Notes under the pieces: model-generated | The model's input: only the letters and a program-made list of their open reading frames with translations | Database searches by the model: none | What the model was told of the DNA's origin: nothing | Program-made: the position numbers and the translations under genes | Assembly (NCBI RefSeq): GCF_018986915.1 | Contig: NZ_CP076723.1 | Span: 2,203,501 to 2,267,500 of the forward strand | Length of the DNA: 64,000 nucleotides | Source of the DNA: Geomonas oryzisoli | Lineage (GTDB): Bacteria > Desulfobacterota > Desulfuromonadia > Geobacterales > Geobacteraceae | Direction: 5' to 3' | Shown here: positions 40,607-61,803 of the stretch, piece by piece | Position numbering within the stretch: position 1 is the first letter of the stretch | Layout of the letters: every line of letters begins with the position of its first letter

Positions 40607-40756
40607 CAATTGACAATTGACAATTGACAATGGACAACTAAAACCCGCTGCAATTGACAATTGACAATGGACAGCCCCCCCGCTTGCTGGCCTCGACACA
40701 GGCCGTCAGCAAATAGCGGGTTCATAATTGTCAATTGTCCATTGTCAATTGTGCAT
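40607..40756. repeat. Large inverted repeat of CAATTGACAATTG units
   Basis: Two tandem blocks of CAATTGACAATTGACAATGG (about 40607 and 40651) face an inverted block at about 40727-40753; AACCCGCT (40642) and AGCGGGTT (40715) pair inside. It fills the whole gap between livF and paaK and could fold into a cruciform or a long RNA hairpin within the operon. Confidence 0.8.
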
Positions 40757-40762
40757 TGATTA

Positions 40763-60093: not shown

Positions 60094-60678
60094 ATGACGG
60101 CGTTCACGGCAAAAGACTACTCCCAACTGATCGGGATGCCCGGGTTCAGCGAGGCGCTTCTCAACAACCATTTCACCCTGTACCAGGGGTACGTGAAGAA
60201 CAGCAACACCCTGGACGAGCAGCTCATGCAGCTGCGCAAGGACGGCAAGGGGTCCGATCCCATCTTTGCCGAGCTGAAGAGGCGTTTCGGGTGGGAATTC
60301 AACGGCATGAGGCTGCACGAACTCTACTTCGAAAACCTCGGCGGCAACCAGCCGATCAACCAGGACGGCAGGCTGGCGGCCCGGCTGCACCAGGACTTCG
60401 GGAGTTATGATGAGTGGGTTCAGGACTTCAAGTCCGTGGGGGCCATGCGCGGGATCGGCTGGGCCATTCTGTACCAGGATGCGCACAGCGGCAAGCTGAT
60501 GAACTGCTGGATCAACGAGCACGACGTCGGTCATCCCGCCTGCTGCGTCCCGATCCTGGTAATGGACGTGTTCGAGCACGCCTTCATGACCGACTATGGC
60601 CTCAAGCGCGCCGACTACATCAACTCCTTCTTCCAAAACATCGAGTGGATCAAGGCCGAAGAAAGGATGCAGATGTAG
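60094..60678 (+). CDS. sodA: Fe/Mn superoxide dismutase
   Basis: 194 residues from ATG 60094 (AAAGGAGAG upstream). Metal ligands by family pattern: His26 (NNHFTLYQGY), His75 (MRLHELYFENLGG), Asp158 and His162 (MDVFEHAFMTDYG). The Asp-x-Phe-Glu-His motif replaces the usual Asp-x-Trp-Glu-His, as in related Geobacter enzymes. Cytosolic, no signal peptide; it dismutates superoxide. It has its own promoter and terminator, so it is monocistronic. Confidence 0.93.
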   Translation: MTAFTAKDYSQLIGMPGFSEALLNNHFTLYQGYVKNSNTLDEQLMQLRKDGKGSDPIFAELKRRFGWEFNGMRLHELYFENLGGNQPINQDGRLAARLHQDFGSYDEWVQDFKSVGAMRGIGWAILYQDAHSGKLMNCWINEHDVGHPACCVPILVMDVFEHAFMTDYGLKRADYINSFFQNIEWIKAEERMQM

Positions 60679-60709
60679 TAGCGCCTGCGACAGAAGGTTT
60701 GAAGGAAAA

Positions 60710-60737
60710 GGGCCCCCCTCCGGGAGGGGGCCCTTTT
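60710..60737 (+). terminator. Terminator of the SOD gene
   Basis: GGGCCCCC and GGGGGCCC arms with a short TCCGGGA-type loop, followed by TTTTTGTTTTT, 31 bp after the stop codon. Confidence 0.9.
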
Positions 60738-60814
60738 TGTTTTTCAAATAAGTGCTGATGCTGTCAATTACGCGACACCCTTGCCTTGTGAAACGATCAC
60801 AACAGAGCGCTGTG

Positions 60815-61655
60815 AGGTAGTATGCCATTTCGCTTGATCGGCGTACCGGTTCAAGTGAAGTGGTATACCGGTTTGTTTGAGTGGTAAACCAGTTGGGAGT
60901 AAGTGGTAGACCATTTGGCTTGAATGGTAAACCAGTTGGGAGTAAGTGGTTGTCCATTTGGCTTGAATGGTAAACCAGTTAGGAGTAAGTGGTTTACCAT
61001 TTGGCTTGAATGGTAAACCAGTTGGGAGTAAGTGGTTGTTCATTTGGCTTGAATGGTAAACCAGTTGGGAGTAAGTGGTTGTCCATTTGGCTTGAATGGT
61101 AAACCAGTTGGGAGTAAGTGGTTGTCCATTTGGCTTGAATGGTAAACCAGTTAGGAGTAAGTGGTTGTCCATTTGGCTTGAATGGTAAACCAATTAGGAG
61201 TAAATGGTTGTCCATTTGGCTTGAATGGTAAACCAGTTGGGAGTAAGTGGTTGTCCATTTGGCTTGAATGGTAAACCAGTTAGGAGTAAGTGGTTGTCCA
61301 TTTGGCTTGAATGGTAAACCAATTAGGAGTAAATGGTTGTCCATTTGGCTTGAATGGTAAACCAGTTGGGAGTAAGTGGTTGTCCATTTGGCTTGAATGG
61401 TAAACCAGTTAGGAGTAAGTGGTTGTCCATTTGGCTTGAATGGTAAACCAGTTAGGAGTAAATGGTTGTCCATTTGGCTTGAATGGTAAACCAGTTGGGA
61501 GTAAGTGGTATACCGTTTGGCCAGAATTGTGAACCACCTAGAATTAAGTGGTTGACCATTAGACCTTGAGGGCATACCGATCATGGTTGAGTGGCATGCC
61601 GTCAGGCCCAAACGGCATATCTGCTAAGGTCAAGCGGCACGCTGGCAGGTTTCGC
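60815..61655. repeat. 43-bp tandem-repeat array of phased TGG-N4-CCA sites
   Basis: About 20 units of 43 bp (14 well conserved, 60911 to 61512; the outer ones diverged). Each unit has a 21-bp half (CCATTTGGCTTGAATGGTAAA) and a 22-bp half starting CCAGTTGGGAGTAAG; both end in TGGT. Alternating sites are TGGTAAACCA and TGGTTGTCCA, and edge copies read TGGTATACCG or TGGCATGCCG. About 38 sites recur every 21-22 bp. Variants ordered GTTGGG, GTTAGG, ATTAGG give a 129-bp higher-order repeat from about 61100 to 61490. It lies between convergent SOD and zinc-ribbon genes. Confidence 0.95.
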
Positions 61656-61803
61656 AGAAGCTGACATCCGTGCTTGCAAGCCGGCAACCGCAGGAAGCGC
61701 AGGCATTGTCCCATTCCGGGTGCCCCGCGTCCATCGCCCTCTTCTTCGCCTCAAGCCTCCTCACCTCCGCCTCCATCTCTTCGTTGTACTGCGTCTCGAA
61801 CAT
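61630..61803 (-). CDS. Zinc-ribbon miniprotein
   Basis: 57 residues from ATG 61803 (AAGGAGA eight bases upstream). An N-terminal charged helix (NEEMEAEVRRLEAKKRAMD) precedes a CxxC pair (Cys35, Cys38, with Cys40) and a second CxxC (Cys50, Cys53): a small treble-clef or zinc-ribbon shape. Its last codons run into the diverged edge of the tandem array, so the end may have been shaped by the repeats. Such miniproteins are often nucleic-acid- or protein-binding; no specific family is recognised. Confidence 0.7.
   Translation of the reverse strand: MFETQYNEEMEAEVRRLEAKKRAMDAGHPEWDNACASCGCRLASTDVSFCETCQRAA

Follow-up and report, generated by a model that had tools for sequence, protein, structure and literature searches.

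A phased array of two-fold-symmetrical sites beside sodB in Geomonas oryzisoli belongs to a class of arrays tied to small helical proteins

We analyzed a 64-kb stretch of the Geomonas oryzisoli chromosome (the window, G000:C1:2,203,501-2,267,500 of a 4.85-Mb genome) and found that the tandem array lying there between sodB and a convergent gene is a member of a class of phased site arrays tied to small helical proteins, a class wider than was first noted. The array keeps a helical phase, a common core and a dyad symmetry, recurs in a near group of genomes, and has its site class in common with a second array of the same chromosome, which adjoins the gene of a small protein, named here SP; genes of the SP family are in turn linked to such arrays. 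SP is a candidate binder of the sites, and the array at sodB may serve it as a remote target.

Structure of the array and conservation of its sites

The array contains 39 in-register sites with a spacing alternating between 21 and 22 bp (Table 1), in agreement with the first-pass annotation, which had counted about 38 phased sites in half-units of these lengths. The sequence TGG-N4-CCA is exact in 29 of the sites and GG-N4-CC in 34, the other five keeping three of the four core bases. The chain score is 104.5, compared with a best score of 6.0 in 10 Markov-resampled copies of the locus. TRF reported a single array there, with 93% matches between units. The edge sites TGGTATACCG and TGGCATGCCG are more palindromic than the inner copies, as had been noticed from the letters, and the left edge has near-identical counterparts in G002 (TGGTATGCCA, CAGCGTACCG, TGGTATACCG). 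The final two sites (61613 and 61635) reach and enter the 3' end of the convergent gene, whose 57-aa product is called zinc-ribbon-like for its two Cys pairs and has no Pfam family above cut-off. Hairpin patterns of terminator type number four in the region (1.8 expected), one of them lying before the array. A coding repeat was considered, as the minus strand is open for 205 aa, and dropped because another frame has stops in several units and the 43-bp unit shifts the frame. Elsewhere in the window TRF listed short repeats with units of 7 and 14 bp at 40607-40637 and 40727-40758 (CAATTGA; ATTGTCAATTGTCC).

Table 1. Features of the array and its flanks (positions in the window)
Feature	Position	Strand	Basis
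sodB, Fe superoxide dismutase, left flank, points into array	60094..60678	+	Pfam Sod_Fe_C E 4.5e-25; ORF also listed in longer form
Intrinsic-terminator-like hairpin of sodB	60705..60738	+	hairpin pattern
Phased array, 39 dyad sites NGG-N4-CCN, 21/22 bp alternately	60818..61644	.	site chaining
Homogenised array core, 43-bp unit x 15.9	60877..61560	.	TRF
Array left edge, diverged sites TAGTATGCCA, CGGCGTACCG, TGGTATACCG	60818..60870	.	site listing
Array right edge, diverged sites TGGTATACCG ... GGGCATACCG, TGGCATGCCG, CGGCATATCT, CGGCACGCTG	61506..61644	.	site listing
57-aa zinc-ribbon-like protein, convergent right flank, 3' end overlapped by last site	61630..61803	-	translation

The sodB gene is present in all 19 genomes of the genus. 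A search of these for the same half-unit period, as had been proposed, recovered arrays of NGG-N4-CCN sites in 21/22-bp steps near sodB in G002, G006 and G013 besides G000 (35-39 chained sites each in one chaining and 29-39 in another), and a three-site remnant in G012. Unrelated sequence, or none, at this locus of related genomes had been named as evidence against a functional array, and the relatives are divided: a GG-N4-CC array or remnant occurs in 5 of the 19 genomes, and 14 are without one. Two of the latter have another repeat there: in G010, whose locus is at a contig end, parts of ~21 bp that contain GGATCC or GGCTCC make up a unit of 83 bp, and in G004 a weak 22-bp repeat is present in three copies. 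The remaining 12 have no array of this kind at the sodB loci examined, that of G009 stopping at a contig end after 323 bp of downstream sequence. An unrelated 20-bp repeat (TAAGCTTATTCCAGCGGACT x 4.9) lies ~1.4 kb downstream of sodB in G003 (L055 3467-3579), running off the end of the sequence.

From one species to another, GG....CC and the step stay constant, and the spacers of 11 and 12 bp differ, as do the four bases at the centre; in one centre comparison the rows had been chosen on GG....CC, so the invariance of these bases there holds by construction. The centres, some of them from SP-linked arrays, include TATG, CATA, TAAA, TTGT, AGTA, AGCT, TACG and CGCT, and vary both within and between arrays. 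The fixed centre TGGTATACCA, as expected of an array of GntR operators, is thus only one form of the site. In G000 the sodB array lies 2.26 Mb into a record of 4.85 Mb, in G006 1.20 Mb into one of 4.99 Mb; because of this difference, a terminus or origin site, which would call for a fixed chromosomal place, was set aside, although the start points of the two records may differ.

The site is approximately wwAAnYGGnnnnCCRnTTww, a two-fold-symmetrical sequence and a candidate target of a dimeric DNA-binding protein. In 11 arrays, dyad symmetry measured at positions unused in site finding gave correlations of 0.43-0.89, with p <= 0.027 in ten and p 0.05 in the eleventh; for the G000 sodB array, the profile correlates with its own reverse complement at 0.63 (p 0.0165). 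Three of the 11 arrays are poorly homogenised, namely those of G005 (42 sites, exact GG-N4-CC in 26), G014 (35 and 21) and G008 (41 and 19), those of G005 and G014 having related stretches and therefore not being independent. Their profiles correlate with their own reverse complements at 0.81, 0.73 and 0.75, respectively (permutation p 0.001-0.0015), and have shoulders rich in T/A, with Y preceding GG and R following CC. Pairwise identity within these three arrays is 0.69-0.80 in the core, whose bases, unlike the symmetry positions, served to find the sites, and 0.33-0.39 in the centre and flanks. Such profiles are to be expected from an 18-bp two-fold-symmetrical site that recurs at every second helix turn with hardly a gap between copies. 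The array of G005 (Citrifermentans bremense, L117 7421-8296), mostly in exact 21-bp steps and with little unit identity, is the clearest case of phase without homogenisation.

The extension of the symmetry beyond the core, even in poorly homogenised arrays, means that dimer sites on double-stranded DNA fit the data better than a passive minisatellite does. A passive minisatellite is expected to have no constrained position, and neither the identity within arrays nor the dyad symmetry has that pattern. The first-pass view of the array as a protein-binding platform rather than a passive minisatellite is borne out to this extent, as phase and core survive between species and the symmetry is found in 10 of the 11 arrays. 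A strong palindrome in every unit of the whole protein family described below is a separate proposition, which we rejected: the single-unit test was weak, with p < 0.01 in 2 of 29 units and a combined p of 0.017 over 23 units.

Linkage of phased arrays to the SP and FN3-type genes

A second array of the same class, with 29 sites, was identified in G000 at 1,677,881-1,678,495, 0.59 Mb from the window array. A three-site model was searched against the 19 genomes, scoring 150 of about 1000 first-look candidates per genome (1038 in G000), and all G000 matches listed fall in one of these two arrays. A two-site pattern gave 18 matches in G000, of which 16 are in the window array and 2 elsewhere, with 3 matches for the control. 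The second array is flanked by the 3' ends of two genes, a helicase gene (UvrD and HelD-like matches) and the SP gene (G000:C1:1,678,646-1,679,011), and is directly downstream of the latter. A linkage of the arrays to the HelD/UvrD-like gene was the first to be seen and was dropped because the arrays of G004 and G005 are with SP and not with the helicase: SP is ~24 kb from the helicase in G004 and has another neighbour in G005, and in both genomes the array adjoins SP. The sodB and SP arrays have a unit in common in G013 and a 22-bp block in common in G002, and units have therefore been copied or homogenised between loci.

The SP product of about 122-123 aa has no Pfam or NCBIfam family above cut-off, no PHROGs family and no convincing sequence relative in the PDB (best E 0.09). 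Its AlphaFold model, built with 13 sequences, is a helical bundle between two short strands (mean pLDDT 85.6) with a basic, low-confidence tail, and a fold search of the PDB gave no match to it at E <= 0.001. Of 58 relatives, 23 have SP-like genes; the SP profile had no match in the other 394 genomes of a 395-genome sample of the phylum, whose listed rows include no further genome of the genus. Neither the SP profile nor the FN3-type profile introduced below matches anything within the 64-kb window. In several genomes a gene with a 228-bp repeat lies near SP (L158 1092-2485; L123, L124, L125), and presumably encodes HYR-like domains.

An array in the ~21-bp phase is present no more than 800 bp downstream in 25 of 28 SP-family loci at a TRF score of at least 50, and in 20 of them at a score of at least 100, the other 5 scoring below 100; upstream arrays were found at 2 of the 28. 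As controls, the ends of ORFs with 250 codons or more were taken from eighteen 20-kb stretches of G000; a phase array is present at 8 of these 338 ends, and at 1 of 338 with a score of at least 100. An array was called when its period was 20-23 bp or 2, 3 or 4 times that; the period windows and score cut-off were chosen after the first arrays had been seen, and the controls were run at the same settings. The 28 loci, many of them orthologs and hence not independent, come from 48 listed matches, of which 30 had loci: those of G057 and G036 were left out as weak matches, the latter in a Lon-protease-like frame, and the 18 other listed rows are outside the count. The three loci without a TRF array are those of G009, G015 and G023. 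Among other SP-type genes of G000, the paralog at 1.5655 Mb (outside the 28) has a downstream array of 21 bp x 20, and a third, distant one (L199) has no array in the downstream DNA examined.

Even unrelated units keep a period close to 20-22 bp or a multiple of it. The units themselves are wholly different between paralogs and between some orthologs, for example CATGGCACATCGCGCAATAGGT x 26, CAAAGTGTCGGTACCCATCGC x 21, GTAGCTGCATTCGCCACGGTG x 19 and TCGAAACAATGTTGATGACCA x 17. At the SP genes of G001 and G011 the unit is unrelated to GG-N4-CC, and a turnover of sites must therefore be explained. On the SP tree, the GG-N4-CC class does not form one clade: it needs 2 changes, and a single change suffices in 0% of 200 bootstrap trees. 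Clustering of the site classes on this tree is seen in the labelled groups, which together need 2 changes, a number as small arising in 2 of 200 shuffles. The three genomes with the label CACATCG make up a clade (100/99), the label of G009 having been taken from words seen there, where TRF found no array.

A larger family, bearing fibronectin type III sequence, is referred to as FN3-type, a Pfam fn3 match being present in 3 of 7 members; its genes also tend to have phase arrays nearby, on one side or the other. The SP profile matches an FN3-type protein of G000 encoded at 1.8135 Mb (E 4e-4), and one of its four matches in that genome is the FN3-type gene of L191. The FN3-type profile matches 29 of 141 genomes of the order, with 19 matches in G000, 9-20 per genome in the genus and 22 in G024. 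For 12 FN3-type genes of G000, a phase array lies downstream of eight, upstream of two others and on neither side of two. For the best match in each of 21 genomes, the array is downstream in seven, upstream in seven others and absent in seven, one of these arrayless loci consisting of 208 bp only; at a TRF score of at least 100, six of the 21 have it downstream and two upstream. These seven upstream arrays, together with the G005 array, located at the promoter side of the gene that follows, weaken the earlier suggestion that the window array insulates convergent transcription.

In the 18 control stretches and the window taken together, five phase arrays score at least 100. Family genes in this DNA number three (E < 0.001, with an A5 profile that contains the L183 protein), and each has one of the five arrays directly downstream; the other two are the window array and a three-copy repeat in L170 without a family gene.

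An orphan array separate from a home array is also seen for an FN3-type gene. The motif ATGTAACNNTTACAT (<= 1 mismatch) has 9 distinct sites in the 4.85 Mb, in two places only and with 0 control matches: four sites at 3,384,386-3,384,652, upstream of its FN3-type gene, and five at G000:C1:3,763,631-3,763,896 (L180 3631-3896), in 21-bp steps within both clusters. The orphan cluster lies on the 5' side of what appears by eye to be a winged-helix regulator gene. Two further FN3-type motifs have no orphan cluster, single sites with 1 or 2 mismatches elsewhere being near control level, and an orphan cluster for every family member was accordingly rejected (one of three patterned motifs). Upstream of the FN3-type gene at 3.384 Mb are two clusters of 15-bp palindromes (L190 823-878 and 1053-1094); a distance of 231 bp (11 x 21) separates their first sites and preserves the phase from one cluster to the other.

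Possible role of the array and alternative explanations

On balance, we favor the reading that the window array is a remote ('orphan') copy of the SP-linked array, that SP is its most likely binder, and that it acts as a platform, in tethering or in titration. SP, in its model a small helical bundle with a basic tail, may bind the array sites as a putative dimer. Dimers bound on one helix face every two turns might assemble into a cooperative nucleoprotein platform; the home array and the sodB array could then tether the two loci, or the level of free SP might be set by titration. Binding by SP, its cooperativity, and the tethering or titration are inferred steps.

A broader proposal, which we put forward tentatively, is that ~20 paralogous helical-bundle proteins per genome, many with an array of their own, constitute private protein-DNA addresses, the window array being one remote address. 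Each protein would cluster on its home array and tether or sense the remote one, and protein and site would drift jointly, at a rate that sets sister species apart. The paralogs would comprise the SP type and the FN3-bearing type, some pairs having a second array far away.

The window repeat, minisatellite-like at first sight, shares its class with arrays that are linked to a multi-copy protein family. The helical part of the scanned members of this family has no Pfam, NCBIfam, PHROGs or PADLOC match (PADLOC models matched none of five SP/FN3-type proteins). If SP binds, the family would be a new one of sequence-specific chromosomal proteins with many protein-site pairs per genome, and a system in which protein-satellite coevolution could be watched in bacteria.

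A less probable explanation is that the sites are those of another regulator, such as a repressor of GntR type or a nucleoid protein, and that SP is linked to the array in some other way. Any dimeric binder would account for the symmetry and phasing, the edge sites are similar to TGGTATACCA, named in the first-pass annotation for UxuR/ExuR, and the site class does not exactly follow the SP tree, given the two changes of GG-N4-CC. However, the four centre bases vary between and within species, no such regulator was recognized by eye among the ORFs read beside the arrays, which adjoin 25 of 28 SP loci, and site classes cluster on the SP tree (the CACATCG clade and the shuffles above). The link to GntR/UxuR regulators, or a sink for them, as first proposed, found no support here. 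The operators of the FadR/UxuR branch resemble one site form only, TGGTATACC(A/G), and differ from the window array in that the centre is not conserved here and the sites form an array of ~39.

We consider it unlikely, and somewhat more so than a different regulator, that the arrays and their genes are a selfish or mobile cassette, an SP-family gene and array spread and homogenised by recombination without a host function. The many paralogs per genome (19 FN3-type and 4 SP-profile matches in G000), the units common to different loci in G013 and G002 and the patchy occurrence at sodB would suit such a cassette. It is opposed by the lack of any transposase, nuclease or defence domain above cut-off in the scanned members, of relatives in viral contigs (pattern-seeded scans) or in plasmids (one FN3-type query), and by a phase held over 35-42 sites in poorly homogenised arrays.

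Growth of a passive minisatellite by slippage is very improbable. It would account for the homogeneous units of the core (93% matches) and the fast spacer turnover, and direct repeats of 6 to 42 nt do occur throughout the intergenic regions of G. bemidjiensis, according to the part of that report available to us (PMC2996986). Nevertheless, core and phase outlast spacer identity, the sites have dyad symmetry, the arrays are strongly linked to one protein family, and unrelated units have a period near 20-22 bp or multiples of it.

Least probable of all is a structured RNA transcribed from the array with hairpins between neighbouring palindromes: although 129-nt pieces of the window array fold on the plus strand (z -6.0 and -4.9; mean z -5.9 over five pieces), as do the other sodB-locus arrays and the SP arrays of G000 and G001 (mean z -3.8 to -7.7), both strands of homogenised arrays fold (window array minus strand about -3) because complementary dyads must, poorly homogenised arrays fold little (sense/antisense mean z -0.5/-1.8 in G014, -1.3/-1.0 in G008 and -2.6/-0.6 in G005), the array of the G001 paralog gives -2.3/+3.2, and no Rfam family lies on the array, L036, which contains it, giving tRNA only.

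Comparison with known systems

Among the closest parallels are the plasmid iterons and incA-type titration arrays, in which head-to-tail phased sites of ~19-22 bp stand beside the gene of a small binding protein and extra remote copies could titrate that protein. The helical phase of the window array is alike, in 21/22-bp steps over 39 sites. The arrays described here differ in being chromosomal, in a linked protein without an initiator domain, in extending to about 42 sites and in a unit sequence that changes between close species; no replication initiator or origin was recognized beside the window array, its flanks being sodB and the zinc-ribbon-like gene.

Partition centromeres of the parS/parC type also consist of phased sites for a small protein able to spread or bridge. 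Phased sites are common to both, whereas many different protein-array pairs per genome are found here, and no ParA-type partner was recognized by eye in the ORFs listed flanking the arrays. REP/BIME elements, which are associated with RAYT transposases, are extragenic palindromic units, some of them between convergent genes. The palindromic extragenic units are a common trait, but the present ones recur in tandem every two helix turns and, in the searches made, occupy one or two loci, and no transposase domain was found in the linked proteins. The window array differs from CRISPR in that its spacers repeat with the unit, and no cas gene was seen by eye among the flanking ORFs.

In the literature as far as it was accessible (PMC2996986, PMC2700814, each in part; subscription papers thinly covered, preprints outside), no link between phased arrays and a protein family was found. 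Multicopy intergenic direct repeats of 6-42 nt were described in 2010 in G. bemidjiensis with their implications left to be elucidated; like the present arrays they are direct, intergenic and from the same bacterial group, and the portion of the article seen states no protein-family link, helical phase or site symmetry (PMC2996986). The arrays described here might give such repeats a role. Other multicopy families have been described in G. metallireducens, in the part of that article available (PMC2700814). The accessible text on G. bemidjiensis also describes fibronectin type III genes under GEMM riboswitches, possibly encoding surface proteins (PMC2996986). In our set, c-di-GMP-I riboswitches (Rfam) occur near two family genes (L192 356-431 and L198 3012-3088).
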